Positions 17,301-47,481 of a DNA stretch of 64,000 nucleotides are shown here, one piece after another (position 1 is the stretch's first letter; every line of letters begins with the position of its first letter). The notes beneath the pieces are model-generated. The model had not been told where the DNA came from and did not search any database. It saw only the letters and a program-made list of their open reading frames with translations. The DNA is from Agrococcus pavilionensis RW1. Its GTDB lineage: Bacteria > Actinomycetota > Actinomycetes > Actinomycetales > Microbacteriaceae. The stretch lies in assembly GCF_000400485.1 (NCBI RefSeq), contig NZ_ASHR01000036.1:1-64000 (forward strand), given 5' to 3'. A program made the translations under genes and the position numbers.

Positions 17301-17768
17301 GACGAGGTCGTGCGCATCGTGCACGACCTCGTCGGTCGCGAGTGGATCGATAATCACGGCCGACGGCCTCTCACCGCGGCTGACGTCATCGTCGTCGCGC
17401 CGTACAACGCGCAGGTCGGTCTGCTCCAGGATCGCTTTCGAACAGCGGGACTCGGCGCGGCCTCCGTGGGAACGGTCGATCGGTTCCAGGGCCGAGAGGC
17501 CGCGGTAGTCATCGTCTCGCTTTCTGCGTCGAGCGCCGAGGAGGTGCCGCGCGGCGTCGACTTCCTCCTCTCGATCAACCGCCTCAACGTCGCGATCTCG
17601 CGCGGACAGTGGCTCGCCTACCTGGTGCACTCCCCAGGCCTGCGAGCTCACCTCCCCTCGACACCGGATGGGCTGGCGCGGCTCAGCGCATTCCTGCGGC
17701 TCGTCGGAATGTCAGAGGACGGACGACCGGTGCCTCCCGCGACCGCGTCTGGCCATCATCAGCGCTGA
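14319..17768 (+). CDS. TM0106-type RecB-like nuclease fused to Upf1-like helicase
   Basis: 1149 residues, GTG start with an AGGAG site. Residues 1-200 form a RecB-like nuclease (GYADF at 112, then VVSDAKLARR with D129 and K131), followed by CGKCAACE near 214-221. Residues about 305-500 are an RNase H-like domain (LFFDFEGD at 311-317). Residues about 750-1130 are a superfamily-1B helicase: GPPGTGKT at 767-774, DEAGQ at 872-876, GDPQQLP, and FQGREAAVVIVSLS with LNVAISR at the end. This is the TM0106 family layout, a DNA/RNA-processing enzyme of unknown role. Its 3' end overlaps the convergent UvrD-like gene by 57 bases. Confidence 0.88.
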   Translation: MILEDETLLLTASDLTRASGCEWQVLTALDAKLGRRAPVPEEQDAMLERTAVLGDLHEATILDALRAKGEVVEIEKGLDRAGREAAVAATRAALDRRAPVVFQAAFEGERFFGYADFVELVDGEYVVSDAKLARRAKVAALLQLAAYARALRSIGAPVADEVRLLLGDGTTSVHRLRDIEPVLLERRSRLERIVDRRLAAEAALPWGAEGVLACGKCAACEEQLEPHDDLFQLAGIRRDQRQRLRAAGIPTVAALATAAEPPAGMAAATFAALQRQARAQLRSRDEGTLAFELVDPTPIRELPQPSPGDLFFDFEGDPLWQEGPFWGLDYLFGVRDASGAFRGFWAHSLAEEKQALIDFLDFVRERRAQHPELHIYHYASYERTHLLSIAARHGVGEEEIDDLLRTGVLVDLYPVVKRSLVIGSPSYSLKKLEPLYMPAERAGEVTNAGDSIVWFQQATDLREQGEHEQADRLFAQIEDYNAYDVESTHGLRDWLRELIADHIDERMPSALPKELAPEKAEAIAAREQLVGRLLARAGDDPSRRDADETALWLAAAAVGFHKREEKQFWWQHFSRLDGALEEWREQRDVITVDEVLEVGAWRPEKRSVVRRIRFRGTVAPGSRLSEEAREMYAVYAPPTVIDPGAVTALRAHRRTALTWNGDIFELAERQGVVPEPWDDVPIALTPGSGPPTDSLRDSIQAWASRVAAASEHDRPLATALPDDPALDVLRRRAPRTLAPVGGDDRGTIDAVTESLAELDARFVAVQGPPGTGKTYAGARVIAALFERGWRIGVVAQSHATVEHMLDGVIQAGVPAHRVLKNPKGRDSPTRSWTTSTDPERDLADEPGVIGGTVWDFAGLANNGRRELDLLVVDEAGQFSLANTIAAGRAAARLLLIGDPQQLPQVSQGIHPAPVDDSALGWLCDGAAVVPPEFGYFLGTSWRMHPALCEAVSDLAYDGRLGAHGSERDMPGVEPGLVPLPVEHNGCTTTSTEEADEVVRIVHDLVGREWIDNHGRRPLTAADVIVVAPYNAQVGLLQDRFRTAGLGAASVGTVDRFQGREAAVVIVSLSASSAEEVPRGVDFLLSINRLNVAISRGQWLAYLVHSPGLRAHLPSTPDGLARLSAFLRLVGMSEDGRPVPPATASGHHQR

Positions 17769-20700
17769 AGCCCATCCGCCGAATCGATCGCGAATCGCCG
17801 CGCCGCTCGGGCGTCGCACGCCGCCAGCTGCCTCGCGCCGTACCCATTGCTCGTAGCCCGCGTAGCTCGGCCGCCCTCCGCGCTCCAGCGAGGACTCGGC
17901 GTAAGCCACGACCGCTTCGATGTACTCGTCGGCGGTGAAGTGCAGGAGACCCTTCGGCCGACCGGCGCGCCTGATCTCGAGCCCCATGGCCTCGAGCGCG
18001 TCCTTCCATGAACCGTCGCCCAGACGCCTGATGATCGTCTGCTTCGTCGGAGGCCATGGGGAGCGCCCCTTCGCGGTCGACAGTCCCCACCGATCGAGGA
18101 TGTGCGCGCGAACCGCGTCGTAGCGAGCTGACGCGATCGTCACACTCGGGTCCGCATCGGCGAGATCGCGGGCGGCTGCCACTGTCGCCGCGATCTCGTC
18201 GACAGGCAGGCCATCCTGTTCCTCCAAGAAGCCGACCACGTCGGCGCCAAGAGCAGCCCTCGCGACCGCGATGTCGTCGATCGGGCGCACGCGGTGGTCG
18301 ACGCCGATGGCGTACCAGACTGCGGCGCTGAGGGCATTCTCTGGGAACAGAGCGCGGACGCCCCCTGGCACGAACGCAACCGGAAGCCGCCGCAGCACCC
18401 GCTCGATGATCTCCTCAGGGAGTTCCTGGTGCCGGACGACCAACCGCTCGATCGTCGCGCGCTTGCTGAGCCCCTGCTCCGAGTAGCGGGCGACATCGTC
18501 GCTGATCGCCGCCTGTGCCGCGGCGACCGCGGCGGCGTCGATCTCGAGCGCACGCTGCTGGCGTTTCGCCCTCATCTCGGAGGCAGGTGGTGCTCCGAGC
18601 TGCTTCAGAAGCTGACGGATCCGCTCCCGCGTTAGACCGACCCGTGCGCCGATCTCATCCAGGGTCAGCAGCTCGTCGGTCCACAGAGCGAGGATCTCGG
18701 CATCTCGCTGCTGACGATTCCCGCCCGCCGCGGCAGTAGCGGGACGACCGGTCGGGCTTCCCTCCAACGGCCACGCTGACTCATCGAGCGCCCACTGCTG
18801 CGCGTCCGGCTCCTCGAGGGTCGGTTGGTGCCGCGGTGTTGCGAGCGCGTCGTCGAGCAACTGCGAGGGCGCCTCTACCCACGACACCGCAAGCTGGTCG
18901 CGGGCGCGGGATGCCGCAACGTACAGCAGCGATCGCTCTCGGAGCAGCGCGTCTTCGCGATCGCTCGTCGCTTCTCGGTCGATCCACCAGGAGTTGGGCA
19001 CCGCCGTTGCCGAGACGTCGAACAGGACGACACGCGAGAACTCGAGGCCCTTGGAAGCATGCATCGTGAGGACCTGGGGACGCGAGTGCTTCCCGGTGCG
19101 CGAGCCGAGATCGACGTCGAGCCCTCGCGTTTGCAGCTGCCGGACGACGTCCTCGGCCGTCTTGGTCGTGCGTACGAGCACCGCGACCGACTCTGGCTGC
19201 ACGCGATCGGTCTCGATCCACTCTTGGATGAGCGCTGCGACCCCGTCGAACTGCTCCTCCATGGTCTCGCTCGGCAGCGAGGCCGGCTCGGGACCGGTGA
19301 AGGCGCTCCGGTAGCCCGCGATCGAGTCAGGATCGTCGCTGGAGTCGAGGTAGCTGCCCCCGGTGAGCACAGCGAGCGCGTACCGCAGGTTCTGCGCGGT
19401 CGTTCGGTAGTTCAGCTTCAGTCGACGCGACCGGCCGACGATGCCGATGCCCAGCCGAGAGAGCGTGATGTGCTGACCGTAGATGCGCTGGTGCGAGTCT
19501 TCCGCGATGAAGAGGTCGTCATCGCCGGGCGCGACGAGGGCTCGCAGGAGGAGCCACTGCGCTGGCCGGAGATCCTGCCCCTCGTCAACCAGGACGTGAT
19601 CGGCGAGCGTCGTGTCGCTGGATTGCAGCCACCGTGCTGCGACGGCGGCGATCTCGCCGTACGTTACGCGATCGAACATGCGCGAGGCGCGTCGATACGA
19701 CTCAACCACGAGCCAGACAGCGTCTCGCCGCCGTCGATCGAGCGGCACTCGCCGGCCGGCGCGTGTGGCCTTCCGATAGTCGTCCCTGGTCACGATGAAC
19801 TGCGGCAGCACGACCTGCTCGTACTCGGCGATGAAGAACGAGACGGATGCGAGATCAGGACCGAGCGCGTCGATGTGGTCATCGATCGCCTCGCGCCAGG
19901 CGGTCTCATCCGCCTGACCCGCTGCGGGGCGAGCGGAGCCGATCGGCGAACCCAAAACCTGAAGTGCGGCGTCGTCGAAGGCAGACGGCCCCGCCTGCGC
20001 GCGCACCGCGGCCGCCAGTTGGTCGACGCCGAACACGCCGATACCGGGCTCGCCCGGGATAGTCGCGCGAGCGACGTCGGGATCGAGTCGGTCCAGGTCG
20101 CGCTGAAGGTTGTCCGCGAGCGTCCGGGTGAACGTCGTCAGCAAGGTGCGCGCATCCGGATTCTCCCGCGCAAGACGGCGCGCTCGGTGGAGCAGCACAA
20201 CGGTCTTGCCAGTGCCCGCGCCGCCGGAGACTCTGCCTGGGCCGTGGAACGTGCGCTCAACCAGCGACTGCTGCTCGGGGTGCAGGAAGACCCGCCATGC
20301 GGCGATATCGCCGCCCTCCACGATGCGTCGGAGCTCTTCGTCATCCTCGCCGTCGACGAACGCGAACTGCATGCGCGCAGCGGGTTGCTGCATTGCCTCC
20401 AGCAGGGCCTGGTCGCCAGCCTTGGCAGGCTCGGCAGGATGGGCATCGTCCGTCAGGGGCTCGAGCTCGAGGGACTGGACGATGTCCTCGACGGCTTCGC
20501 CCGCGGCGAGGGAGAGCAAGACTTCGGCGTGGTATGGCACCTCGGCGATCACAGCTAGGTCCAGCAGCTCGTCAGCAGTGCGGCATGCGAATGCCAGCTC
20601 GACGATGTCCTCAGGGAGGCCGAAAGTCTCGGTCAGGAGCTCCGGCTCGTATCCCGCACCTGCAAGATACGAGTCATCCGACGCATCGTCCTGGACGCTC

Positions 20701-21185
20701 GACGCCTCGGCCGGGGTGACCGCGGCGCTCGAAGGAGCCGCTGAGCTCGAAGCGTCCGCGCTCGCGACGCGCAGTTCGGACTCAGCCTGAGCTCGCGCCG
20801 CGTCGGCCGCGGCCATGGCCGCCTCGAGCGACTCGGGCATGACCGGGACACCGAAGCGCAGCTCGGCGACGCCAGTGATCGGATTGATCATCAGCTGCAC
20901 CTTGCGTGCGATGTCGATCGCCTCGTCATGCTCGTACGTGCCGAGGTAGCAGTAGGTCGGGTCGCCTTGCGCTCCCTCGAGCCGCACGAGCACCGCGCGG
21001 AGCGACTGACTGACGCGGCCGGTCCGAGCGCGCGGATCAGCAGCGTGCCGCATTGGCTCGATGTGCAGGCCCGGTGCTTTGTGGTCCGCACGCAACTTCA
21101 TGAGGAAATCGAGGACGAGCTTCGGGTGCTCCTGGTCCTTCTCGCGGTTCTTTCGAGCGGACTTAACCATCACGACGTTTGCCAT
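17712..21185 (-). CDS. UvrD-like helicase with N-terminal RelE-like and C-terminal HTH domains
   Basis: 1157 residues. The N-terminal 110 or so (GLHIEPMRHAADPRARTGRVSQ..., YCYLGTYEHDEAIDIA) resemble the RelE/ParE fold. A superfamily-1A helicase follows: GGAGTGKT at 321-328, VDEGQD at 533-538, NYRTT at 591, MHASKGLEF at 708, and YVAASRAR at 755. After residue 835, LDEIGARVGLTRERIRQLL is a sigma-region-4-like HTH, then about 290 residues of unknown helical domains. It is the last gene of the minus operon: ATG lies 3 bases after the preceding stop, with a GGAAGGAG site inside that gene. It probably handles DNA ends during defence. Confidence 0.85.
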   Translation of the reverse strand: MANVVMVKSARKNREKDQEHPKLVLDFLMKLRADHKAPGLHIEPMRHAADPRARTGRVSQSLRAVLVRLEGAQGDPTYCYLGTYEHDEAIDIARKVQLMINPITGVAELRFGVPVMPESLEAAMAAADAARAQAESELRVASADASSSAAPSSAAVTPAEASSVQDDASDDSYLAGAGYEPELLTETFGLPEDIVELAFACRTADELLDLAVIAEVPYHAEVLLSLAAGEAVEDIVQSLELEPLTDDAHPAEPAKAGDQALLEAMQQPAARMQFAFVDGEDDEELRRIVEGGDIAAWRVFLHPEQQSLVERTFHGPGRVSGGAGTGKTVVLLHRARRLARENPDARTLLTTFTRTLADNLQRDLDRLDPDVARATIPGEPGIGVFGVDQLAAAVRAQAGPSAFDDAALQVLGSPIGSARPAAGQADETAWREAIDDHIDALGPDLASVSFFIAEYEQVVLPQFIVTRDDYRKATRAGRRVPLDRRRRDAVWLVVESYRRASRMFDRVTYGEIAAVAARWLQSSDTTLADHVLVDEGQDLRPAQWLLLRALVAPGDDDLFIAEDSHQRIYGQHITLSRLGIGIVGRSRRLKLNYRTTAQNLRYALAVLTGGSYLDSSDDPDSIAGYRSAFTGPEPASLPSETMEEQFDGVAALIQEWIETDRVQPESVAVLVRTTKTAEDVVRQLQTRGLDVDLGSRTGKHSRPQVLTMHASKGLEFSRVVLFDVSATAVPNSWWIDREATSDREDALLRERSLLYVAASRARDQLAVSWVEAPSQLLDDALATPRHQPTLEEPDAQQWALDESAWPLEGSPTGRPATAAAGGNRQQRDAEILALWTDELLTLDEIGARVGLTRERIRQLLKQLGAPPASEMRAKRQQRALEIDAAAVAAAQAAISDDVARYSEQGLSKRATIERLVVRHQELPEEIIERVLRRLPVAFVPGGVRALFPENALSAAVWYAIGVDHRVRPIDDIAVARAALGADVVGFLEEQDGLPVDEIAATVAAARDLADADPSVTIASARYDAVRAHILDRWGLSTAKGRSPWPPTKQTIIRRLGDGSWKDALEAMGLEIRRAGRPKGLLHFTADEYIEAVVAYAESSLERGGRPSYAGYEQWVRREAAGGVRRPSGAAIRDRFGGWASALMMARRGRGRHRSSVL

Positions 21186-21188: not shown

Positions 21189-24100
21189 TCAGCTCCTTCC
21201 AAGCGCGCGCAGCGCCGCTTCGACGTCGGGAGCCACCGTCCACCCGGCCGCTTCGAGCCGAGATCCAAGTTCCGCAGCATCGCGGTCCACGAGGACGAGC
21301 CGCTCCGATTGCCATGCGATCGGCACCAGCTCACCCTCGATCTCGGCGCCGATCTCGGGCTTGGGCGCTCCTCCGGCTGCGAGCGCGCGGAGGAGAGGCA
21401 ACTCGTCGGCTTCCGCTCCTTCGATCAGCTCGAGCCACTCAGGCGGGAGACCGGTCTCGTCCCGCGGCAGCGGTTCGTATTCGACGGAGATCGTGGGTTC
21501 GTGCATCGACCTCGCAAACAGGTCGGCGGGCGCGGCGGCGTGCGCAAGGAGGTTGCTCAGTCGCAACCAGATGCGCCAGCGGTCTGCGAAGCCGGAATCG
21601 CTGACGGCCGCCGGGCTGTCGTCGAGGGCGAGCGCGGCCCGTGATCCCGACTGCGCGATCACTGCCCCCAGCGCCAGCGCGCCGTCGCGTGAGACGAGGC
21701 GTGACTGGAACGACTTCGCGACCTCAAGGCTGCCATCGAGCGCGGCGATCGCCAACGAACGAGGGTCGGCATGCACGCTGCTGGCTTGCGTCGGCGACGG
21801 TGCCGCGAAGGGGACGAGATCGGCGATCCGCTGCCATTGCTCTCCAGCCAGCTTCGGCGCGCGGATCCAATCGATGAGCTGGCTGACCGGATCGGCAAGC
21901 GCGAGCTCCACCGTGGAGGCAGCCACCCCGGCCTTCTGGGCAAGCGCCCGCAGGCGGGACATATCGAGCCACTGCGCTTTCGCGAACCATTGGGGCTCTT
22001 CGAGGTCTCGGTGGGTCACTGCAACTACGTGCAGGCCGTGCTCCCGCAGGTTCGCCCGCTTGGCAGCGTCGTCGGCCAGCCGGTTGACCGCCGGGCTGGC
22101 GTGATAGGCGTAGCCGTCGGTGTAGATCGCCACCTCGGGAAGCGCGCCCCCGTGCCTGCGGAGAACGTAGTCGGGCACGGTCCCGTGAAGGTGCATCTGG
22201 GGCTTCAGGATCCACTGCGCCCCGTCGACTGTGATCGTGAGCTGCACCCCGCCGGCGACGGCGGTCTCCGTGATCGTCGCACCCAGCGTCTCCTTCAGCC
22301 GATCGGCGAAGTCGACCCTGAAGCGCTGTTCGAGCAACGACTCCGGAGACTCCGCTCCGGGGTCCGTGGTCGTGACGCTCCACTGCTCCTCACCCAACAG
22401 GGTCGCGAGACCCTGCAGAGCGCTCTCTCGCGAGATGAGCGGCACATCGCTCGACCGGCGCGCCATCGGGATGAGGCAACGATGGCATGCCGCCTTGCCC
22501 TCGCCCGCGCATTCGCACCGCTCGAGCACCTCCTTGGCGCGCTCCAGCATGCGGCGGACACGCACGTGATCCGTCAGATCGGCGAGGTAGCCCGTGCCGC
22601 CAGGCACGGTGTCATGCAGCAGGAGGGCGGGCAGCGGCACATCCGAGCCTCGGACCGGCTCGACGATGTGCTCGATGTCGAGGTGGTCGGGCTCGCCGCC
22701 GATCTCCTCTCGAAGCCCGAGCCGGATCGCCGCGATGAGCGAGGGCAGCCCGAGCGAGCTCATCGTGATCACGGCCGGCAGACGCAGCACGCATCCTTGC
22801 GTGCGGAGCGTGCGCTTGAGCGCCAGGCTCCGCGTGTGCTCATCCTTCGCGGTGCGGCGGGAGCACCAGGGGCGATGCTCTCGCACCGAGTTCGTGTCAC
22901 CATCCTCGTCGAGCTTGCCGCATTCGGCGCATACGCGGAACAACGGCGCCGCGCCGTCGAGACCGGCCACAGCGAGCGTGCTCGCGCTCTCGCCGCGGCC
23001 GAGGTTGAGCCATCGAATCGTGAGGTCGCGGTAGAGCTGCACGCCGAACCCGTTCTCCTCGACGAACCAGCCGTGCGAGCGACGCGAGGGATCGAGATCG
23101 GCCGCGACTCGCAAATGGAACTGCCGGTTGATGCGATCGTCGCTCGTGTCGGCGATCACCGACTCATCGCGCCTGACCTCCGCCGAGACGTTGCGGAGCT
23201 CCGCGACCTCGATCCGCTGCCCGACATCTGCGATCGCTGCGCTACCGCATCGCGGGCATTGCGTGGAGGGCGCGGATACGTGCTCGAGGTCCTCGGCATA
23301 GCCGCAGGCGGGGCAGAATGCCCAAGTCTCGACGCTGTCGCCATCGACACCGAGGTCGACAGCGTCGACATCGACCTGCATCCCTCGGGCGTAGAACGTG
23401 GCACCGGGCACCAGCTCACGGATGGCGTTGCTCGCCCCCCGATCCAGCTCGAAGCTGTCGTGCATGAACTCGCCGGTGTCGGGGTCGAGCCACGAGACCA
23501 CCACGCCCAATTTCACCGAATCATCGATCAGCGAGTAGTTCGGCAGCAGGCCGGCGCGCTCGAGCGCGCCGATCCAGTGGGTGTTGCGAAGATCCTTCAA
23601 CGCGCCTCGGTAGTAGCGCCACGCGGCCTTCGCCGCATTCAGCGCCGCCTTCTCCTCGACTCCGGCAGTCGGATGCGCCGCCTCCGCTTCGAGGTCGGGC
23701 AGCGCGGCTTCGACGTGCTGACGCCGGAACTTCAAGTGCTGTTCCTCGACGAGCCACCGTTGCACAGCTGCCACCGCTGCGTTCGCTAGGCCGCTGGTGC
23801 CGGGTCCGCCATGAGGCTTCACCCACTCGCGCAGGCGCTCTCGCGCAGCCGGGCGAAGCGCGGTGTCGTCGAAGGTGGACAGGAAGCGCTCGACGGCCGC
23901 ATCGTCGGCTTCCGCTGTTGCGACGATCTTTCCGAGAGGGGAATCCGGGTCGACCGACCGGAGGACGTCGGATGCGAGCCACGACTCCGACTGCCCCTGC
24001 GCGACGAGCGCATCGAAGAGGGAGGCGGTCAGCTGCCGCTGCAGTATCTCCTCCGCGTCGAGGTACGTGGCCGGTGGCCGCACGTCGCCGTCTATCGTCG

Positions 24101-38000: not shown

Positions 38001-41000
38001 TCATCAACCATCCTGTCGCGGACATCGCGTCGGTCGGGCGAGCGTCCGTCGCTCTGGACAGTGCTCTGCTGGCGAGCCGCGCAGCGCCGGAACTCCACTC
38101 CTACCTGCTGACCTCGGCTTCGCTTGCGGACCGACAGCTGTGGCTCGGTGTGCAGCACGCGCCCCCCTGGCACCCCGAGACGTTGAGCGCGTGGGCGAGC
38201 TCCGATGCGCTCCAGATGGTCGAGCAATTGCGCTCCGACGTCGCGCAGTTCGTCGGGCGGGAGCGCCGCTGGTTCCGCGAGCTTCGCCCGGAGACCCTCG
38301 ACCAAGACCTGCTGGGCTGGCACGCCGCAGCCGAAGCCGCCGGTCGGGGGAACCCGTTCACGCGGAAGCGTCGTCAGCGCGAGGCCGCCGAGGCGCTCAG
38401 CCCGTGGCTGCGCCCCGGCGAATCGATGAACGAGGCGACGTTCGGCTCGAAGCTGCAGGAGCTCATGCTCGACCGCAGCCAACTCGAGCATCTCCGAGAT
38501 CGCCTGCGGCAGCTGCCGCTCAGCGCTGGCGCGGCAACGGCCAACCCGCTCATGGCGGCACATGGGGAGCATCTCGCCGTCGAGCTGAAGCTGTTGGCAG
38601 AGCGGCTTCGCATCCTGCTCGAGGCCGGAAGGAGCGCGGGTGCTGCAGCAGTCATTGCGGCAGCCCGCCGTGGTCGGCTCCACGAGGAAGCGCGACTGGC
38701 ATCCGCCGTTCTGGAAGCTTGGAACGAGGTACAGCGCACGCTCGCGCCCGCAACGGACGGAGTCACCACCCTCCAAGCATGGGAGTCATTGCGCCTCGGC
38801 GGGTCCGCGCCGATCTCCGCCGGCGCTATCGAGTGGAACGACCTGCTGCTCGCGATCGATCCACTTGCGTCGCCTCCATTCGACGACCTGCGCGCACGCA
38901 TCCTCTCGGGCAAGGAAGATCCGGATGCGATCGTGCTCGCCTTCGACCACGGAGTCGCGGCCGCGTCCGCACGGGAACGCTTCGAAGCGATGCGCATGGA
39001 CTCGTTCGACCGCGCAACCCACCACGCGGCGATCGATCGGTTCGTTGCGAGCACGGAGGCCATCCGTGGCATGCTCCCCCAGCGCATTCCCGCTGCAGTG
39101 GTCGAGCACCGGACCTTCCACGGCGGCGCGCGGAGCGGCCGCATCGGCGAGTTGCGGCGCAAGCTCGGCAAGCAGCGCGGCGGTGACACGATCCGCGAGA
39201 TCTTCGCGTCCCACGGGGACTTGATCACGCAGATCGCGCCCTGTGTGCTCACCAGCCCGGACGGGGCAGCTCGCTTCCTCCCACCGAACGCAGAGCTCTT
39301 CGACATCGTCGTGTTCGACGAGGCCTCGCAGATCAAGGTTGCCAACGCCATCGGCGCCCTCGGGCGCGCGCAGGTGGCCGTGGTCGTGGGCGATAGCAAG
39401 CAGATGCCGCCATCTTCCGTGTTCGACTCAGCCCTCTCCGAGGACGAGGCCGACGAGACAGCAGTCGTTGATGAGGAGTCGATCCTGCGCGAGTGCGTCC
39501 TCGCCAACGTCCCGCGACGTTGGCTGAGCTGGCACTACCGAAGCAAGGACGAGACCCTCATTGCCTTCTCGAACGAGAAGTACTACGAGTCACGCCTCGC
39601 GTCCTTCCCTTCCCCCATCGGCGCCTCCGGCAGCGGTCTCAGCCTGCGCCGCGTCGACGGGACGTTCGATCGCACGAGCCGTGGCGCGAGTGCTCGCACC
39701 AATGCGGTGGAAGCCGACGCTATCGTCGCCGAGATCGAGCGCCGGTACGCCGAATCGCCGGATGCGCTGCCTTCGATCGGTGTGATCACGCTGAACATCC
39801 AGCAACGAGACCTCATCAGAGAGCGGCTCCTCGCTACTGCCGATCCCAGGATCAGTGCCACGCTCGAAGACCCCGACAATCAGGCACTGTGGGTGCTGAA
39901 CCTCGAGAGCGTGCAAGGCAAGGAGGCTGACCTCGTGCTGTTCTCGATCGCGTTCTCGAAAGACGCAAGTGGGAAGCTTCCGCTGCACTTCGGTCCAATG
40001 AACCTTCCTGGCGCGGAACGACGGCTCAACGTGGCCGTCACCCGCGCGCGGGCGGAATCGATCGTGTTCTGCTCGTTCGAGCCCATGGAGCTGCAGGCTC
40101 GGCAGCCCGCCAGCCTGGCTCTGCAGCACCTGGCGGACTTCCTCATCCGGGCGCAGGGTGGAGCGACCGCGGCCCTGCAGAGCGGGCTCCGGCGGACAAC
40201 TGTCGATCGCCACCGCGACGAGCTTGCAGCGGCGCTGAACGCCGCCGGCTTCACTGCGACGACTGACGTGGGTCTGTCCGACTTCCGAGTCGACATAGCG
40301 CTCTCAGACCCGGCGGACCCCGACCGTCAACTCGTGGCTGTGTTGCTCGATGGACCGGGCTGGCGCGATCGGAAGACGGTGCACGACCGCGATGGGCTGC
40401 CGATCTCAGTCCTGTCCGATTCGATGGGCTGGCCAGCGGTCGAGCGCGTCTGGCTTGCGGACTGGATGCGTGACCGCGACGGCGTGCTCGAGCGGCTTCG
40501 GGCGGCCGTCGATCGAGCGATGACTGGCCAGCCCCTCTCCGCCTCCCCTGCGGCGACCGTGCCTGTTGCGCCATCTCGCGCAACCGCGGCCGTCGCGTCG
40601 AACGATCCCGGCGGAAGGGGGTTCGCTGTCTCGCCAACGAGGGCGCGGGCGCGCACAGCAGCCGACTCCATGCTGGCCCGCCATGCGAGCGAGTATCGAC
40701 CGTGGGATCCAGAGGCGGCACGCAGCCCCCGCTACGAGGTCGATGATCTGCCCGGCTCGCGCGAACACCAAGAGGTGTCTGCCTACGCGGACCAGATCGT
40801 CGCGGCGGAAGGGCCGATCGCGTTCACGCGGCTCGCTCGGCTGATCGGCGACGTCTACGGTTTGGGGCGCGTGACCGCTGGCCGACAGGCCAAGATCCTG
40901 CGGTGCGTCTCCGATGCCTACCGCCGCTCGGGTGACCCCGATTTTGCCTGGCCTCGCGCCATCGAGCCGGCGAACTATGCCGGCTTCCGCGTACCTGCGC

Positions 41001-41278
41001 CCGACGAGGTCCGGTCGGTGCAAGAGATCGCGCCGGAGGAGATCGCCAACGCGATGGCGGTCATCGCGAAGCAGAGCGGTGGCGCGACTGCCGCTGACCT
41101 CATCAGTGAGGCGTTGTCAATCTTCGGCGGTCGGCGACTCACCGCGCAGGCTCGCACCGCGCTGGAAGCAGGGCTCGACCGCGGACTGCGCTCGGGACGA
41201 CTGCGCAGCGACGGCGACCTCATCCATCCGACGTGGCATGGCGGTTCCGGGGATGTCGGCGCGGCCGCCGAGGACTGA
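35030..41278 (+). CDS. Giant DUF4011 / Upf1-like helicase / nuclease / DUF3320 protein
   Basis: 2082 residues from ATG 35030. A transglutaminase-like fold covers about 290-460 (Cys in RLATCMD, His in FPDHILVAYW, Asp in AIVDVHVARRLG). DUF4011 begins with VERWKSSLLDLSLRNRLINF near 497. A superfamily-1 helicase follows: GPPGTGKS near 820, VFDEASQIK, GDSKQMPP, VQGKEADLVLFS and RRLNVAVTRARAE. Near 1740, LSDFRVDIALSDP...VAVLLDGPGW is a PD-(D/E)XK-like domain (REase_MTES_1575/Vsr type), and DUF3320 ends the chain (about 1910-1990). Families with this layout are tied to phage defence. First gene of the plus arm. Confidence 0.87.
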   Translation: MTSGAERLDARLESLLFSLDELLAEHFADEAGDRPWPTALLRGLTDAEAVAWKRQPTHLLRAAMLARPLPGAMMADANLIIDAIESRVELNDQQTERFEATIEALRRAWGLEDATEFTTLSSSTLGGASIRVFAPQTVSLNLAATASPIRAHIEVAAGSVDARQAQLDVALIADGIRLTMPMRDDVSLSPGEKTRLNTHELAFDSSSIWALDRVTRGVLQARLLDGEGGVIAEASAGLDVLPPRAWHEFDRTLEPWETLAAHVQPHSPAVQQLIPAVQAKLRAHTGNGSIDNYQSGDATRVDAIARAAFEALRDWQLGYAEAPASWDVRGQLVRTPDEVSATRLATCMDSTVLLASLLEALGVMPLLVGFPDHILVAYWRVKGNAPSSAVRAHDLPALLTSEVGLVETTMVCSSAGAVSFTTATEAARAKVESSLPAGIDAIVDVHVARRLGVRAMPARVLLPDGSVTVIEYTAEVSSQRIEFQGASQARRTSAPSRVERWKSSLLDLSLRNRLINFSPRSQTRLVVPADGLSRLEDGLNANAVVPITHDRDFDPVLQDRIGRLQRQQDFEGSAAEIRKAIARRFDERMTVFVKLPRTPDEGPNPVTTFTTKMRRLTSEAQRVEREQGTNNLYVCFGMLRWNLGGKPLESPLILVPVHLTSTHRGTKFRLQLDESGASTPNFALLEKLKTEFDLDLPGLADPKADESGIDLEALFASVRESIAQRGLGFAVDEVAVLGLLAFGTYRLWKDVADHWEQFAATPLVRHLIHTPTEAFEDPVPARAGTDLDDLGLRTPIPADGSQLEAIADAVHGTTFVLEGPPGTGKSQTIVNLVAHAMMEGKRVLFVAEKADALEVVDQRLRASGLDALTLNLHHDDAKPKQVKEALLAALDLAPEFDADGLATRGESARASQRVLQRYARALHEQNAAGHSMYSAHNRVLASREVGDAAVPFADAVAAVPAERIQQVRQVLASAGEAMVAARPRPDHPWSFINHPVADIASVGRASVALDSALLASRAAPELHSYLLTSASLADRQLWLGVQHAPPWHPETLSAWASSDALQMVEQLRSDVAQFVGRERRWFRELRPETLDQDLLGWHAAAEAAGRGNPFTRKRRQREAAEALSPWLRPGESMNEATFGSKLQELMLDRSQLEHLRDRLRQLPLSAGAATANPLMAAHGEHLAVELKLLAERLRILLEAGRSAGAAAVIAAARRGRLHEEARLASAVLEAWNEVQRTLAPATDGVTTLQAWESLRLGGSAPISAGAIEWNDLLLAIDPLASPPFDDLRARILSGKEDPDAIVLAFDHGVAAASARERFEAMRMDSFDRATHHAAIDRFVASTEAIRGMLPQRIPAAVVEHRTFHGGARSGRIGELRRKLGKQRGGDTIREIFASHGDLITQIAPCVLTSPDGAARFLPPNAELFDIVVFDEASQIKVANAIGALGRAQVAVVVGDSKQMPPSSVFDSALSEDEADETAVVDEESILRECVLANVPRRWLSWHYRSKDETLIAFSNEKYYESRLASFPSPIGASGSGLSLRRVDGTFDRTSRGASARTNAVEADAIVAEIERRYAESPDALPSIGVITLNIQQRDLIRERLLATADPRISATLEDPDNQALWVLNLESVQGKEADLVLFSIAFSKDASGKLPLHFGPMNLPGAERRLNVAVTRARAESIVFCSFEPMELQARQPASLALQHLADFLIRAQGGATAALQSGLRRTTVDRHRDELAAALNAAGFTATTDVGLSDFRVDIALSDPADPDRQLVAVLLDGPGWRDRKTVHDRDGLPISVLSDSMGWPAVERVWLADWMRDRDGVLERLRAAVDRAMTGQPLSASPAATVPVAPSRATAAVASNDPGGRGFAVSPTRARARTAADSMLARHASEYRPWDPEAARSPRYEVDDLPGSREHQEVSAYADQIVAAEGPIAFTRLARLIGDVYGLGRVTAGRQAKILRCVSDAYRRSGDPDFAWPRAIEPANYAGFRVPAPDEVRSVQEIAPEEIANAMAVIAKQSGGATAADLISEALSIFGGRRLTAQARTALEAGLDRGLRSGRLRSDGDLIHPTWHGGSGDVGAAAED

Positions 41279-41394
41279 CATCGAAATGGGCCTGAACCGC
41301 CTCAGCGTCGACGTCGTCGGCGGATTCTTCAGATCAAGGAGCCTGGCGCCTAGGGATCCGAAGGAAGTGTGCGCTCGCCCGTAAGGTCATGAGG

Positions 41395-41421
41395 AAGAGC
41401 TCCGGAACGCGGAGGGCTCTT
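41395..41421 (+). promoter_or_regulatory. Leader hairpin before the DUF6361 gene
   Basis: AAGAGCTCCG pairs with CGGAG-GG-CTCTT (two-base bulge, 5-base loop), ending six bases before the AAGGAGG ribosome-binding site. In the 161-bp gap after the DUF4011 gene it could be a terminator for that gene or a control element for the three-gene unit that follows. Confidence 0.35.
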
Positions 41422-41439
41422 GCGCAAGGAGGAGCTGTG

Positions 41440-42639
41440 GTGTCACTCGTGTCGTGGTTGGACGTCTCGGCTGAGGAACACCGACGCATGCGTGAGCTTG
41501 CCGCGCTCTTCGAGCTCGGTGAGGCGCGGGAGGAGCTCGGGCTGGCTTCGCTCCGTGACGACATCGCTGACGCACTGTTCCCTGGGACGTCGACACTGCA
41601 CACACGCGCGCGCTACACGTTGATCGTGCCCTGGTGTTTCCAGGCCGCGGCAAAGGCGGGCGGGTCGATGGAAGACCTCGCCCGTGTCGAGCGCCAGGCG
41701 ATCGAGACACTGCGCAATTCGAAGCTGGAGATCCCCGGCCTGCTGGGCCGGACCGCCGGGGCTGGGCTCAAGACGCTTCCTTCGAGCCTCTATTGGTCTG
41801 CGCTGCAGCGGTGGGGCATCGTCGCCGAGCGGATGTCGCGACCTGATGCGCTCGCGAACTCTCGGGATCGCCGCCATGACGCTGAGGACGAATCGAACGA
41901 CCAAACGGAGTCGATCTGGGATGTCTTGCCAGCGCCAGACGGGTTCCCCAAGCGGATAGACGGCGGGCTCGATCTCACGCCTGCAGAGCAGGTGTGGCTT
42001 AGGGAGAGGTTGCTGACCAGCGCACCTGACTCGCTGCTGGCCCACTTCGCGAAGCACGCGCCCTCCGCCGAGTCCTCCGCGCCGTGGGACGACCCTGCCG
42101 CTCTAGACGCCCCTTCGCGGGTTCGCGAGCTGCTCGAGCTGGCCCGAGGCTTCTCGGCCCTGATGCACGGCGCGCAGCTCCTGTACAACCTGCTGCTAGC
42201 GGAAGCGAGGCTCGCAGCACGCCCCAACGACGCGTCGTTCCAGGAATCGGTTCCCCTATTCCGGGCGGCATTGACTTCATGGGCTCAGCACGAGGACCTC
42301 GCAACGACCCTGGAAGGGTGGCGGCTCGAGGCGCTGGAGGGTGCCCTGCGGGGTGTCCTCGCGCGACCGCGTAAGACCGACGACGACACTGCTGACTTCG
42401 TGCGGCAGTGGCAGCGCCTCATGAACGGCAGAGACCTCAACGGAGTCGCCGACGATGACTTGGCGCGCGAGCTCGTCGCACGGCGCGAACTTCACGTGAA
42501 GGGCACCAAGGCCCGGCTTCGCAGCGAGCGGCGCCTCCTGTCTTGGGGCGGCTCGTCGGGCGCCGGTGCCCTCACCTACCGGTGGGGGACCGTGCGCGGC
42601 TTGATGCTCGACATCCACGCGGGAGCAGCGAGTGTTTGA
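41440..42639 (+). CDS. DUF6361 family protein
   Basis: 399 residues, starting SLVSWLDVSAEEHRRMRELAALF. This N-terminus, with LRDDIADALFPGTSTLHTRARYTLIVPWC near 45-72, is typical of the DUF6361 family, usually found beside a phospholipase-D protein and a helicase, as here. The middle is helical with conserved Trp (YWSALQRWGI). No catalytic motif is apparent. The start is one of two adjacent GTG codons behind AAGGAGG. The stop overlaps the PLD gene by 8 bases. Probably a structural or sensing partner of the helicase module, by inference. Confidence 0.75.
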   Translation: MSLVSWLDVSAEEHRRMRELAALFELGEAREELGLASLRDDIADALFPGTSTLHTRARYTLIVPWCFQAAAKAGGSMEDLARVERQAIETLRNSKLEIPGLLGRTAGAGLKTLPSSLYWSALQRWGIVAERMSRPDALANSRDRRHDAEDESNDQTESIWDVLPAPDGFPKRIDGGLDLTPAEQVWLRERLLTSAPDSLLAHFAKHAPSAESSAPWDDPAALDAPSRVRELLELARGFSALMHGAQLLYNLLLAEARLAARPNDASFQESVPLFRAALTSWAQHEDLATTLEGWRLEALEGALRGVLARPRKTDDDTADFVRQWQRLMNGRDLNGVADDDLARELVARRELHVKGTKARLRSERRLLSWGGSSGAGALTYRWGTVRGLMLDIHAGAASV

Positions 42640-44410
42640 GCCCAGTCACCGCAGTCTCCTCTCAGAACTGATGAGGCCTCCGACCGGCTTCCGTCTCGAG
42701 CATGCCGTCGGAACCACATTCACCCTGCACCTGCCGAGCGTGCTTCCGATCCCACTGGCCTTCGCATACACGCAGACGCCAGACGACGATCCGATCGGCG
42801 TGCTCAATGCGCTCCGTCAGTCGACCGACCGCATCGACATCTTCTGCCAGGCCGGATCGATCTCGATGCCGCGCTTGAATGACCTCGTCGCGCTCCTTGA
42901 GCCGTGCATCCATCCGGTCGTTCCAGACCGCGGACTCTTCCATCCTAAGGTGTGGTTGCTCGAGTTCGGGAACCAAGACGAGCGCCGATACAGGCTCATA
43001 ATCGGCAGCCGCAACCTGACGCAAGACTCGACCTGGGATGCGGTGGCGTCGTTCGACGGGGTGGTCGTCGGCGATCTCGATGAATCCGAGCGCGCGAGCA
43101 ATGAAGCAATCGCCGCCTTCGTCGCGTGGCTGACATCCCGCTCGCAGCCGTCGTTGTCAACCGAGCGCGCTCAGCGGCTGGCGGCGTTGGCTGAGCGTTG
43201 CCATGCCATCAGATGGGACAAGCCGGACGCCGTTGAGGCGCTCACCATCCACGTACTGGGCATCGAACGCGCCGGTCCCGTAGTCGACGCGAGCAACCGG
43301 GCGCTCATCATCTCCCCGTTCGTGAGCGACGATGGCATCCGCCGGCTCGCGTCTGCCGACGGTGAGACCGTGCTCGTGTCACGGCCGGAGCAGATCGATC
43401 TCCTGTCACCTGAGACGCTTCGTCGCCTGAGCCTCCGCATGCTGGACGACGGAGCGGACCTCCCGGTCGTCACAGCCCGCGCGTCCCCCGATTCCGACGA
43501 GCAGACGACCGTGCGTCCCGCATCCGACTCGCTGCTCACCGGCTTGCACGCGAAAGTCGTGGTGCATGACGTCGCGCGCGGACGCTCGCGGATTCTGATC
43601 GGTTCGGCGAACGCAACCGGCAGCGCCTGGGCGGGGAACGTAGAAGTGGTCGCGGAGTTGCTCGGCAGGACGAAGGCGATTGGGGTCGATGCCACGCTCA
43701 ACGCGATGGGGGACCTCGTCGAGGAGTATGCCAGCGACGGCGGTCGAGAAGCCGACCCTGAGCAGGTGGCGACGCGGAAACTGGAGAGAGAGCTGCGGCG
43801 GATTGCTGGCCTCAGCCTCGCCGTCGCGTTCGATGGTGCAGGCCCGTTCACCTTGACGATGCGGGCCGAGAGCGACTGGCAGAGCTCCACCCACCACCAC
43901 GACCTCACCTACACCTGGCGGCTCGTCACGCGAGACGCACCAATCGCCGCCGGTCCTCTCAGTCCAGGTGCGCCCGTCGTCGTGAGCGACCTCGCGCTGC
44001 GCGAACTCACGCCGTTCGTCGTGCTCGAACTCGATGACACTGACGGGCACCGCGCTTCGGCGATCCTGGTCGCGCGGATCGACCAGGACGTGGAAGGTCG
44101 GCGAGATCGCATCATCGCGCAACACCTCGACACCCCCGAAGCCTTCGCGCGGTTCCTCCGCCTGATGCTCCAGTTGCCTGCAGCGGAAACACTCGGTGGC
44201 GCAGGCGGGTGGGGGATGCTCAAGGGCGTCGGATCGTCTGGGGGCGGCATGCTCGAGCTCCTCATGCGGGCGGTCGGCGGCACGGGCCAGCCCCTCGCCG
44301 AACTGGACCGCATCCTGCAGCAGATGACGGACGAAGAACGCCAGACCGTGCTGCCTCAGGGCTTCGACGAACTGTGGGCGAACTTGAGGGCAGCGACGGA
44401 GGATCGATGA
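42632..44410 (+). CDS. Phospholipase D-like nuclease (DrmC-like)
   Basis: 592 residues, with two HKD-type half-sites as in PLD nucleases: FHPKVWLL at 103-110 followed by IIGSRNLT at 123-130, and GLHAKVVVHD at 304-313 followed by LIGSANATGSA at 322-332. Both His/Lys pairs and both GSXN motifs are intact, so one composite active site is expected. The C-terminal 230 residues look beta-rich. A PLD protein (DrmC) is one of the three DISARM core genes. GTG start overlaps the DUF6361 stop by 8 bases, and its own stop overlaps the helicase start (ATGA). Confidence 0.83.
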   Translation: MFEPSHRSLLSELMRPPTGFRLEHAVGTTFTLHLPSVLPIPLAFAYTQTPDDDPIGVLNALRQSTDRIDIFCQAGSISMPRLNDLVALLEPCIHPVVPDRGLFHPKVWLLEFGNQDERRYRLIIGSRNLTQDSTWDAVASFDGVVVGDLDESERASNEAIAAFVAWLTSRSQPSLSTERAQRLAALAERCHAIRWDKPDAVEALTIHVLGIERAGPVVDASNRALIISPFVSDDGIRRLASADGETVLVSRPEQIDLLSPETLRRLSLRMLDDGADLPVVTARASPDSDEQTTVRPASDSLLTGLHAKVVVHDVARGRSRILIGSANATGSAWAGNVEVVAELLGRTKAIGVDATLNAMGDLVEEYASDGGREADPEQVATRKLERELRRIAGLSLAVAFDGAGPFTLTMRAESDWQSSTHHHDLTYTWRLVTRDAPIAAGPLSPGAPVVVSDLALRELTPFVVLELDDTDGHRASAILVARIDQDVEGRRDRIIAQHLDTPEAFARFLRLMLQLPAAETLGGAGGWGMLKGVGSSGGGMLELLMRAVGGTGQPLAELDRILQQMTDEERQTVLPQGFDELWANLRAATEDR

Positions 44411-47400
44411 CCGACTTCTCGGCGGACGACATCGTCGAACGGCTCAAGCCGTTCCAGCGGGATGCCGTGGAGCACGTCATCGAGCGCTTCTACGGCTCGA
44501 GCGGGGGATCGCGCAGCGGGCGGTTCCTCGTTGCGGACGAAACCGGGTTGGGCAAGAGCATCGTCGCTCGCGGCGTCGTTGCGCGGACCATCGAGCGGTT
44601 GCAGGATGACCCCGAGGTCGAACGCATCGATGTGATCTACATATGCAGCAATCAAGATCTCGCTCGTCAGAACCTGCAGCGGCTGAACGTCACCGGCGAC
44701 CCTCACGTCAGCATGGCCACGCGGCTCACGCTGCTGGCGAGGGAGTCCAAGCAGCTGAACGGGCCGAGTCGCGACGGGCGCAAGCGGGTCAACCTCGTCT
44801 CGTTCACACCCGACACGTCATTCAGGACCGGAGGGTGGCGCATGGGCGCGGCGCCGGAGCGGGCGCTGCTCACCGTCGTCCTCGACCGCCACCACCGTCA
44901 CGATGAGGCACAGAAGCACGGCACCCGGGTGCTGTTCCGAGGTGCCGCCCGAGAGCTGAAGAACTTCGTGCGGCACGTCGACAACCTGAACTTTGATCTC
45001 GACCATGGGCTGGAACTGGACGACTCGATCGTCCAAGGCTTCCTCGAAGCGTCGGAGGAGAGCGGCACCGCAGCGGCCTTTCAGAATCTGCGGGATCAGC
45101 TGACGGAGGTCGACAGCGTGCCTGGCGAGCTCTGGCATAGCGCTCAGGATCTGATCGCGCGGCTGCGGCAGGAGCTTGCAAAGGCGGGCATCGCTGCGCT
45201 CGAACCGGACCTCGTCATCCTCGACGAGTTCCAACGTTTCCGACACCTCATGGACCCCGACGCCAGCGACGCCGCTGATCTCGCCAACAGCCTCTTCACG
45301 CATGGGGATGCGAAGGTGCTCCTCCTGTCGGCCACGCCGTACAAGCCGTACACGGCCAATGGCGAGGCGGAGGACGACCATGCGCGCGACTTCTTGGCGA
45401 CGCTCAAGTTCTTGGCGGGCGGAGATGAAGCGTTCGTCAGCGATGTCCGCGAGGCGTTCGCGGCCAACCGAGCCGCCTTGACCCTGGGACAAGGGCAGGC
45501 GCAGGCAGCGGATCGGATCCGCGAATTGCTGCAGTCGGTGATGTCCCGTTCGGAGCGACCGCCGCTTCAGGACAAAAAGGACATGGTCATGGAGCGACCG
45601 CTCCACGGCAGCGTGCCGTCAAGCGAAGACATCCAAGACTGGCGGGCACTCCAGCGTCTCGGCCGCGCCATCGAGTCGCGCTTCGAGCTCGACCACTGGA
45701 AGTCGATTCCGTACTTCGCGAGCTTCATGGAGACCTACCGCTCGGGAACGCGCACACGGGCCCTCCTCGAGACGGGGGCGAAAGAGGTCGCGGACGCACT
45801 CGACGCCACCCGAGGGATCACGAACAGCGCTGTCGACGCTCGGGAAGAGGTCGACCTGGGCAACGGCATGTTGAGAGCGCTAGCAGAGGAGACGATTGGT
45901 AAGGGCTGGTGGAGGCTGCTGTGGATGCCGGCCTCGATGCCTTACCTGGAGCCCGGACCGACGTACCGAGATCTCAGCGCCGACACGACGAAGCATCTGG
46001 TGTTCTCGGCCTGGAACGGCGTACCGACCGCCATCTCCGCACTGCTGAGCCACGAGGCGCATCGCCGAGCATCGACGCAGCCGGGTTCCTCTGAGGCGCC
46101 TTCATCAAACACGCGACGACTCGCGTGGAGCATGAGCGATGCTGGCAACCCCGAGCTTCGCACGCTGATGCTGTTCTGGCCTCACCCCGGCGTCGCGGCA
46201 CTCGCTGATCCGCTGCAGCTCGCCCGACGTGCAGGGAGGTTGATCACCGCCAAGGAAGCCCGCCAGATGGTCAGGCCGGGCACGGCGGAGCTCACCGAGT
46301 CCCCCTGGTCGGCGTTCTTCTCTACGGCGAACGCGATCCCCGAGGACGTCGAAGACCCGGTCAAGCTCGCGACCGCAGCCCAAGGGTCTGACGACCTCGA
46401 CTCCAACTTCGCGGCGCACCTCCGGGCGGGCGAGGAGTCGTCACGCGAGGATCCGCGGAGCCATGCAGCGCTTGGGGACCTCGCGCTCAGCGCGCCAGGT
46501 TCCATCGCATGGCGGAGTGTCTCGACGATCGGCGGTGACGATGTCAGCCCGGCCGCCAAGTGGCGTGCCGCGTGGCGCATCTCCCTCGCGCTTCGCGCGC
46601 TCTTCAACCGCACCGCGACCGCTCGCCTGCTCGATGGGCTCTTCCCGGGCGATCTCGACTACTGGCAGAAGGTGCTCACTTACAACACTGACGGCAACCT
46701 CCAGGCCGTGATGGACGAGTACCTCTTCCAACTGCGGAGCGAACTCGGAGGTGGGCCGCTCGACGACGCGAAGCTCCTGCAGATCGCCGATTCGGTCGCA
46801 GCAGCCCTCGGGTTGCGCACCGTCAACCTGGAAGGGCACGAGACAACTCCTGAGCGCGACGTCATCCGTTTCCCAACGCGCTTCGCCGTGCGCTATGGCG
46901 GTGTCAGCCACAGCGTCGACGGCAAGACTGAGCAGCGCCAAGCCGATGTGCGCGCGGCGTTCAACAGCCCATTCGCGCCGTTCATCCTCACCTCGACGAG
47001 CGTCGGTCAGGAGGGAATCGACTTCCACTGGTGGAGCCACGCAGTGGTGCACTGGAACCTGCCGTCGAACCCTGTGGATTTCGAGCAGCGGGAGGGCCGA
47101 GTGCATCGTTTCCTTGGGCATGCCATCCGCAAGAACTTGGCGCAACGGCACCGCGACGATGTACTGGCTTCCACCCTGCCGCCCTGGGACGCCGCCCTGC
47201 AGGCAGCCGAGCAGGCGTCGGAACAAGAAGGGAACGCGTTCGCGCCCTGGTGGGTCTACGAGGGCGACGCCCGGATCCTGCGACGAGTCGCAAGTCTTCC
47301 GCTCAGTCGCGAGCCGGCACGTTACGAGCGTCTACGGCGAGACCTCACGCGTTACCGACTGACACTCGGTCAGCCGCGCCAGCAAGACCTGCTTCGCGTC

Positions 47401-47481
47401 CTCGAAGAACAAGGCGACTCCCAAGGGAAGCTCAAGACCATCGATCTCAGTCCTCCGCGGTGGAATGAGGCCCAGCGATAG
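44407..47481 (+). CDS. SNF2/superfamily-2 helicase, last gene of the plus operon
   Basis: 1024 residues. ADETGLGKSIVARG at 43-56 is the Walker A, LVILDEFQRF near 269-278 the DEXX box (DEFQ), and LLSATPYKPYT near 306-316 motif III. The C-terminal half has FILTSTSVGQEGIDF and VVHWNLPSNPVDFEQREGRVHRFLGH, the helicase motifs V and VI. The long insertion between motifs Ia and II is unusual. ATG overlaps the PLD gene's stop. With DUF6361 and PLD it forms a tightly coupled three-gene cassette and may play the DrmA-like motor role. Confidence 0.84.
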   Translation: MTDFSADDIVERLKPFQRDAVEHVIERFYGSSGGSRSGRFLVADETGLGKSIVARGVVARTIERLQDDPEVERIDVIYICSNQDLARQNLQRLNVTGDPHVSMATRLTLLARESKQLNGPSRDGRKRVNLVSFTPDTSFRTGGWRMGAAPERALLTVVLDRHHRHDEAQKHGTRVLFRGAARELKNFVRHVDNLNFDLDHGLELDDSIVQGFLEASEESGTAAAFQNLRDQLTEVDSVPGELWHSAQDLIARLRQELAKAGIAALEPDLVILDEFQRFRHLMDPDASDAADLANSLFTHGDAKVLLLSATPYKPYTANGEAEDDHARDFLATLKFLAGGDEAFVSDVREAFAANRAALTLGQGQAQAADRIRELLQSVMSRSERPPLQDKKDMVMERPLHGSVPSSEDIQDWRALQRLGRAIESRFELDHWKSIPYFASFMETYRSGTRTRALLETGAKEVADALDATRGITNSAVDAREEVDLGNGMLRALAEETIGKGWWRLLWMPASMPYLEPGPTYRDLSADTTKHLVFSAWNGVPTAISALLSHEAHRRASTQPGSSEAPSSNTRRLAWSMSDAGNPELRTLMLFWPHPGVAALADPLQLARRAGRLITAKEARQMVRPGTAELTESPWSAFFSTANAIPEDVEDPVKLATAAQGSDDLDSNFAAHLRAGEESSREDPRSHAALGDLALSAPGSIAWRSVSTIGGDDVSPAAKWRAAWRISLALRALFNRTATARLLDGLFPGDLDYWQKVLTYNTDGNLQAVMDEYLFQLRSELGGGPLDDAKLLQIADSVAAALGLRTVNLEGHETTPERDVIRFPTRFAVRYGGVSHSVDGKTEQRQADVRAAFNSPFAPFILTSTSVGQEGIDFHWWSHAVVHWNLPSNPVDFEQREGRVHRFLGHAIRKNLAQRHRDDVLASTLPPWDAALQAAEQASEQEGNAFAPWWVYEGDARILRRVASLPLSREPARYERLRRDLTRYRLTLGQPRQQDLLRVLEEQGDSQGKLKTIDLSPPRWNEAQR

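Follow-up and report, generated by a model that had tools for sequence, protein, structure and literature searches.

The locus considered here raises the question of whether two back-to-back gene arms that share one short intergenic region make up a single defence system or several. The arms lie at positions 17712-47481 of the window, by which we mean the whole 64,000-nucleotide stretch analysed, positions 1 to 64,000 of contig NZ_ASHR01000036.1 of the actinomycete Agrococcus pavilionensis RW1. An earlier note on this DNA had taken the eight genes for one array related to DISARM and had left open whether it was the published ARMADA system or a new one. That question can now be answered: judged by gene order and homology, the minus arm is published ARMADA Type II, and the plus arm holds two other known defence types. 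We read the locus as a defence island of three separable modules, namely an ARMADA Type II operon, a single-gene ProA-type module and a three-gene Zac module, and assign this reading a probability of about 0.88. The window proteins were annotated by profile scans with Pfam, PADLOC and NCBIfam. The open reading frame list of the window confirms eight frames at the positions previously given, in two divergent arms with about 130 bp between them, as follows.

17712-21185, minus strand: ArmD, a GajB/UvrD-like helicase of 1157 residues (Pfam UvrD-helicase, UvrD_C)
17712-18854, minus strand: residues 778-1157 of ArmD, a C-terminal extension bearing a helix-turn-helix like that of sigma-70 region 4
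21189-27377, minus strand: ArmC, a YprA/DruE-like superfamily 2 helicase of 2062 residues with an MZB (DUF1998) zinc domain and a nuclease-like C-terminal tail
27374-32032, minus strand: ArmB, a PglX/Type IIG-like adenine methylase of about 1552 residues from its likely ATG (longest open reading frame 27374-32224)
32029-34899, minus strand: ArmA, a BrxHII/RapA-like SNF2 helicase of 956 residues (Pfam SNF2-rel_dom, Helicase_C)
34900-35029: intergenic region between the arms, 130 bp
35030-41278, plus strand: ProA-type (PDC-S37) protein with DUF4011, a superfamily 1 helicase (AAA_11/AAA_12), MTES_1575 and a weak DUF3320
41389-42639, plus strand: ZacA, a DUF6361 protein (PADLOC ZacA 371.1 bits; Pfam DUF6361)
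42632-44410, plus strand: ZacB, a PLD-type protein (PADLOC ZacB 502.8 bits; Pfam PLDc_2)
44407-47481, plus strand: ZacC, an SNF2/DEAD-type helicase of about 1024 residues from the ATG that overlaps the ZacB stop (Pfam DEAD/Helicase_C)

Counted from the end of ArmA, the minus-arm genes are spaced by a 4-base overlap, a second 4-base overlap and a 3-base gap, in agreement with the earlier description of genes overlapping or 3 bases apart. The plus-arm genes had also been described as overlapping, which is true of ZacA-ZacB and ZacB-ZacC but not of the DUF4011-DUF6361 pair, since 110 bp or more separate ProA from ZacA. The shared intergenic region, given before as about 130 bp, has exactly that length when the DUF4011 protein starts at its ATG, and is 97 bp with the longest open reading frame. 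In ArmB and ZacC the longest frame likely overshoots upstream, the likely starts being the ATG at codon 64 and the ATG at codon 66, respectively (both counted from 0), while alignment with homologues places the true start of ZacA probably nearer 41437. A simple sigma-70 scan, which is little informative for an actinomycete, found no promoter-like site in the 130-bp gap. The domain calls made previously were borne out by Pfam on both arms: UvrD, DEAD with Helicase_C and MZB, an Eco57I/MmeI methylase and SNF2 on the minus arm, and DUF4011 with AAA_11/12 and MTES_1575, DUF6361, PLDc_2 and DEAD/Helicase_C on the plus arm.

In the 2025 preprint of Bell et al., ARMADA Type II is defined by four genes in a fixed order: a BrxHII-like helicase, a PglX-like methylase, a YprA-like helicase and, last, a GajB-like helicase whose head is RelE-like (PMC12458937). 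The minus strand of the window carries these four components in that order. As E. coli reference we used a plasmid copy of the ARMADA operon located beside Zorya II and Druantia III-type genes, which is not the strain tested by Bell et al. Window ArmA is 37% identical to E. coli ArmA over 806 columns and 46% identical to its Tsukamurella counterpart over 879, ArmB is 34% identical to E. coli ArmB over 1471 columns, ArmC 29% over 2195 columns (629 bits) and ArmD 29% over 767 columns, covering window residues 22-777. ArmB also matches PADLOC model PDLC03611 at 1438.9 bits, from residue 65 onward. The window resembles the E. coli operon in having four genes of near-full-length homology, encoded on a single strand in an identical order and with overlaps or very short gaps. 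The two differ in that identity is just 29-37%, in that window ArmD carries an extra tail of 380 residues, and in their neighbours, which are Druantia III and Zorya II in E. coli but ProA and Zac here.

All eight residues mutated by Bell et al. are conserved in the window. These are ArmA K136 and D236, ArmB G605 and N971, ArmC K110 and D234, and ArmD K266 and D454 in the preprint (PMC12458937), and the E. coli plasmid copy has those letters at those numbers. The window equivalents include the Walker residues K146 and D245 of ArmA, the GxG glycine G631 and NPPW asparagine N1003 of ArmB (longest-frame numbering), and K327 and D534 of ArmD. Across aligned homologues, the window included, the same residues are kept in 26/26 ArmA, 22/22 ArmB, 27/27 ArmC and 27/27 ArmD rows. 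Six of 28 ArmB rows, whose extracted frames were short, and one of 27 ArmA rows were left out of these alignments. As reported there, six of the eight point mutations abolish protection in the E. coli assay and two, ArmD D454N and ArmB G605A, merely reduce it; protection is described as direct rather than suicidal and as requiring all four genes (PMC12458937). The ArmA-B-C-D order on one strand is intact in 25 of the 27 other ArmB-positive genomes of the sample described below, the remaining two being cut by contig ends. The operon is common in E. coli, where 518 of 5426 genomes have an ArmC gene that matches the query at a DNA identity of 95% or more. The tail of window ArmC is homologous to that of E. 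coli ArmC and, over 11 sequences, has invariant PD, DG, H, N, D and KR positions, the pattern expected for a PD-(D/E)xK-type nuclease. The N-terminal domain of ArmD is homologous to the E. coli ArmD head that Bell et al. term RelE-like. The order of its genes, protein homology over nearly the whole length and the conservation of eight functional residues identify the minus arm as an ARMADA Type II operon. The name ARMADA, which the earlier note had entertained for the whole array, thus applies to the minus arm and not to the plus arm.

Relatedness to DISARM is a separate matter. Like class 1 DISARM, the window has a homologous SNF2 helicase and methylase and a YprA-type helicase; unlike it, the window is without a separate DrmB and without DrmC, and the models that match stay under their cut-offs. 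ArmA scores 313.7 bits (cut-off 610) against an NCBIfam DrmD model, a further DrmD match stands at 104.3 bits (cut-off 950), the NCBIfam DrmA models reach 31.4 bits (cut-off 999) and 21.3 bits (cut-off 950), and ArmB matches the PADLOC DrmMI model at 186.4 bits. No separate DrmB was present among the proteins scanned, nor a separate MZB gene among the window proteins by Pfam. The PLD protein, previously set beside the PLD protein of class 1 DISARM, fits ZacB at 502.8 bits compared with 20.9 bits for DrmC in PADLOC, and reaches 24.9 bits against a cut-off of 133 with the NCBIfam DrmC model. One could still suppose a class 1 DISARM variant in which DrmA and DrmB are fused and DrmC is drawn from the plus arm, and the homology to DrmD and DrmMI, together with the presence of MZB and PLD domains, would fit such a variant. 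With the matching NCBIfam DISARM models far under their curated cut-offs, a methylase that fits another PADLOC model at 1439 bits and a PLD gene that belongs to Zac, we find this hardly credible. Class 1 DISARM was rejected on the low DrmD, DrmA and DrmC scores and on the missing separate DrmB; of the proposed relationship, homology of the SNF2 helicase and methylase stands and membership does not.

Two further systems were considered and rejected. Window ArmC resembles the Druantia III helicase DruE (300 bits, PADLOC), but it is nearer to E. coli ArmC (629 bits) than to DruE of the same E. coli plasmid (132 + 82 bits), and among the PADLOC matches listed for 16 window proteins, the best 25 families in the case of three helicases, there is no DruH-type match. 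For BREX, PglX models reach at most 28.5 bits of 400, and the same listed matches contain neither PglZ nor BrxC. The comparison with DISARM, Druantia and BREX profiles that had been proposed places the locus in none of the three.

The first plus-arm gene encodes a protein that matches NCBIfam NF058533 (antiphage_ProA) over nearly the full model at 1443.5 bits, under the curated cut-off of 1500, and PADLOC PDC-S37 at 822.8 bits. Its domain set is identical to that of ProA. It is described as ProA-type and not as an NF058533 equivalog. The MTES_1575 nuclease-type motif is altered, reading VLLDG..W in the window compared with ECDG..YH in a rhizobial homologue, and a form such as VLLDG..W replaces ECDG..YH in 19 of 19 readable actinobacterial rows (22 aligned), suggesting that the nuclease domain may be inactive. 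One cysteine and one histidine near the N-terminus are conserved in 7/7 rows, and may point to a transglutaminase-like domain. The closest ProA found, 64% identical and from Agrococcus jejuensis, has another neighbourhood: it sits beside Type III restriction-modification-like genes, and nothing within 10 kb of it matches an Arm or Zac protein. A literature search on ProA returned nothing usable. The name could, as an unconfirmed guess, stand for the Prometheus system of PMC12629846.

The remaining three genes are Zac as defined in PADLOC, with three overlapping genes in the same order matching ZacA, ZacB and ZacC at 371.1, 502.8 and 1034 bits. ZacA is 32% identical to Cronobacter ZacA, ZacC 37% identical to its Cronobacter counterpart over 1081 columns, and ZacB keeps two HxK motifs (HPKxxxxE and HAKxxxxD) in the alignment. 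No paper on the name Zac was found in the literature search, and DUF6361 was not found in the literature searched from 2016 on. The window trio stands behind ProA and beside ARMADA, whereas Zac elsewhere lies behind a tyrosine recombinase gene (Cronobacter plasmid) or a pair of PD-(D/E)xK nuclease and UvrD helicase genes (Bradyrhizobium plasmid). On the Cronobacter plasmid the trio occurs without ARMADA. ZacC is also present in 14 ARMADA-negative genomes, the trio being contiguous in 6/6 of those fetched; one of them, G261, belongs to the window's own genus and has a ZacC 55% identical to that of the window. In 19 close relatives, ZacA turned up in a single other genome, as a fragment.

To what extent the two arms belong together was assessed in a sample of 297 genomes of the window's order, with matches taken at E 1e-50 (genomes are numbered with the prefix G). 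ArmB is present in 28 of them, ZacC in 19 and ProA in 110, of which 23 are near-full-length at a limit of 950 bits that was chosen after the match list was seen. Near-full-length ProA occurs in 9/28 ARMADA genomes (2.2 expected) and 14/269 others (Fisher p = 5e-5), and the association persists without the window genome (p = 2e-4). ZacC occurs in 5/28 ARMADA genomes (1.8 expected) and 14/269 others (Fisher p = 0.024). We examined the surroundings of all 27 other ArmB genomes, several of which are shortened by contig ends. ProA lies within 30 kb of the ARMADA cassette in four (G059, 0.8 kb; G102, 2.9 kb; G036, 17.6 kb; G089, 28.3 kb), and so does Zac (G244, 6.8 kb; G059, 7.9 kb; G089, 17.2 kb; G115, 18.1 kb). 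Besides the window genome, four genomes combine ArmB with ZacC, and in every one of them the two share a contig and lie no more than about 30 kb apart. ProA is on a contig separate from that of ArmB in four ArmB genomes (G031, G115, G133, G201). In G059 all three modules stand together: ProA begins shortly after ArmD and is encoded on the same strand, and ZacABC points towards ProA from the other side. The divergent layout of the window was found in 0/24 other loci (of 27) where DNA upstream of ArmA is present. The co-localisation is real and recurrent, in that the partners recur in relatives in other layouts. That the arms co-occur elsewhere, which the earlier note had made its test, holds above chance in the order, clearly for ProA and weakly for Zac, but the ARMADA loci concerned are a minority and differ in layout.

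These data bear on whether the eight genes could be one integrated machine, driven by a bidirectional promoter, in which ProA or Zac supplies helicase or nuclease steps to ARMADA. The 130-bp gap common to both arms, the higher frequency of both ProA and Zac in ARMADA genomes, the joint occurrence in G059 and the altered ProA nuclease motif in 19/19 readable rows, so that a partner nuclease might be needed, are all compatible with it. However, the layout was seen only in the window among the loci compared, in most ARMADA loci neither partner lies within 30 kb (contig ends hide part of some), and both ProA and Zac exist without ARMADA. The spacing of at least 110 bp between ProA and ZacA also contrasts with the overlaps or 3-base gap inside each module, and the linked copies are polyphyletic. 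In the ProA tree of 22 rows, a quick tree built without G201 (wrong frame) and without the ProA of G115 and G051, and with G071 and G133 partial, four label changes are required to account for the five copies linked to ARMADA, and branches with good support enforce every one of them. At least three changes are needed in the ZacC tree of nine rows, which is without G256, G225 and G089 (partial) and without eight ARMADA-negative ZacC genomes. The scattering of linked copies on both trees indicates that the combination was assembled several times. We consider an integrated machine improbable. A conserved eight-gene unit was rejected, its layout recurring in 0/24 other loci, and the single array proposed at the outset is not supported, Zac and ProA being found without ARMADA. 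That the arms diverge from one shared intergenic region probably reflects the way in which the island was assembled.

Reading the locus as three separable modules leaves the matter of whether their meeting is more than coincidence. Defence genes cluster generally, and three unrelated systems could have landed in one hotspot with no functional preference among them. Several observations pull in that direction and weigh against our interpretation. General clustering could by itself produce the same co-localisation. Among neighbour families within 25 kb of the 28 cassettes, the ADP-ribosylglycohydrolase, in 6 loci as is a LacI regulator, is at least as frequent as Zac (5) or ProA (4); ProA is ranked next to Zac together with the family of a 437-residue protein and one other small family, each in 4 of 28 loci, and further families, some multi-gene, recur in 3. 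Zac and ProA are the most frequent nameable defence modules near ARMADA, though not uniquely so. Several of the linked cases are 17-28 kb apart, and the Zac neighbour in G089 is a remnant, a partial ZacC with a stop. Without the window genome the ARMADA-Zac association is weak and borderline (p = 0.069). The window's ProA-type protein is 4% under the curated NF058533 cut-off, and at that cut-off, which excludes it, the ProA association weakens to 4/28 versus 10/269 (p = 0.033). Both associations are kept in genus-level counts (ProA p = 0.0012, Zac p = 0.002), but the counts are not corrected for relatedness and the genus-level count overweights heavily sampled genera. On plasmids, none of the 33 records with ArmB is among the 40 ZacC records listed (of 43). 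Profile searches of solved structures did not confirm two domain identities given for ARMADA Type II, an active Vsr-type nuclease at the C-terminus of ArmC and a RelE-like domain at the N-terminus of ArmD: the ArmC tail matched just two structures weakly (E 0.17 and 0.33), of which none carries the name Vsr, and the ArmD head had no match at E 1.

On the other hand, the ARMADA-ProA association without the window genome, the proximity of ArmB and ZacC in 4/4 other genomes having both, and the several independent assemblies on the trees argue against a neighbourhood of pure chance, which we regard as possible while leaning away from it. The recurrent co-localisation suggests that the combination is favoured. 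It documents with counts, and outside E. coli, that ARMADA meets the same partners again and again, and makes the question of defence synergy testable.

For the ARMADA module we propose that ArmB would methylate adenines at host sites and so mark self. ArmA, an SNF2-type DNA translocase, would work with ArmB on unmarked invading DNA, ArmC, a YprA-family 3'-5' helicase, would open the DNA and its PD-(D/E)xK-type C-terminal tail would cut it, and ArmD, a UvrD/GajB-like helicase, would process the products. We infer both this order of steps and the functioning of the window copy from sequence and analogy. DruE, the related helicase-nuclease of Druantia III, is a YprA-type enzyme reported to load onto 3' single strands and to cleave long DNA (PMC13192584). 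A 2026 review still lists ARMADA with the systems whose mode of restriction is unknown (PMC12904381). Judging by their domains, ProA, a superfamily 1 helicase with a degenerate nuclease domain, and Zac, a helicase with a PLD nuclease and a DUF6361 protein, would each be a nucleic-acid-targeting unit of its own.

The 380-residue tail of ArmD (778-1157) matches Pfam Sigma70_r4 at 3.1e-7. It is absent from all 26 other ArmD open frames compared, which span 734-888 residues against 1158 in the window, and searches with it gave no match at E 0.05 in 143 loci nor at E 0.01 in plasmids, making it an unusual feature of the window copy. It is tempting to go further and picture ARMADA II, ProA and Zac as a synergistic triad repeatedly selected in actinomycetes, comparable to ARMADA-Druantia-Zorya in E. 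coli and co-regulated here from one bidirectional region, with ProA relying on ARMADA or Zac nucleases and the ArmD helix-turn-helix tail adding DNA binding or autoregulation. We offer this as speculation and think it unlikely.

Variation at other ARMADA loci was also observed. In G224 (C2, about 833200-837700) an inverted partial ArmB copy with a 583-residue open frame lies just behind ArmB; near-identical blocks (335 bp at 100%, 935 bp at 89%) alternate with diverged ones and are followed by a tyrosine recombinase gene. A second locus, in G295, also has an inverted partial ArmB copy (14839-15804 versus 17555-18521, 87-92% identical). The copy in G224 is perhaps a switchable specificity cassette of the ARMADA methylase, and its position beside a recombinase points to a self-recognition by ARMADA that may be switchable. 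The terms phase, inversion and inverted are absent from the main text of Bell et al. (PMC12458937). Extra DNA of about 2.5-13 kb separates ArmB and ArmC in 8/27 loci (G059, G031, G163, G177, G191, G198, G224, G295), in some with other defence-like genes: Schlafen AlbA_2 in G031, AAA_11-MTES_1575-Lsr2 and GmrSD in G198, and AAA_11-DUF2726 in G295. A Ser/Thr protein kinase gene of about 400-415 residues is directly upstream of ArmA on the same strand in 3/3 Streptomyces plasmid loci examined. In ARMADA II of the Tsukamurella plasmid, ArmC is annotated as two genes, UvrD-type helicase genes flank both sides, and a separate pair of helicase and DUF1998 genes lies upstream.

Within the window, GC content at third codon positions (GC3) is 0.76-0.89 in the eight genes compared with 0.89-0.97 in five genes on their right that have metabolic or regulatory roles. 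The following features lie to the left.

14319-17768, plus strand: left neighbour, an RNase_H_2 and AAA_11/12 helicase protein, convergent with ArmD, with which it shares 57 bp at the 3' end; possible island member
4487-12770, minus strand: possible left part of the island, five genes with GC3 of 0.71-0.90
4487-5800, minus strand: gene for a 437-residue protein, no Pfam, PADLOC or PHROG match
5832-6920, minus strand: DUF429/PDC-S44
8228-9796, minus strand: SIR2_2
9806-11782 (open reading frame), minus strand: FGase
11343-12770, minus strand: ADP-ribosylglycohydrolase with a dual-specificity-phosphatase-like end

The 437-residue protein recurs at about 34% identity near three other ARMADA loci (G059, G244, G201), directly before ZacA in G059 and at the 3' end of ArmD in G244. 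Homologues of the ADP-ribosylglycohydrolase lie within 25 kb of five other ARMADA cassettes. Because SIR2, PDC-S44 and two ARMADA-recurrent families are found at 4487-12770, the defence island probably reaches left of 17712, where the earlier note had set its boundary. No tRNA was found in the window, and the flank proteins that were scanned include no integrase. Two copies of a direct repeat of 290 bp, 78% identical to each other, lie at 47611-47896, just right of ZacC at the island border, and at 59770-60057, where the copy overlaps a short open reading frame (59773-60141). The sole Rfam match is a SAM-IV riboswitch at 2175-2289 on the minus strand (83.1 bits), outside the locus.

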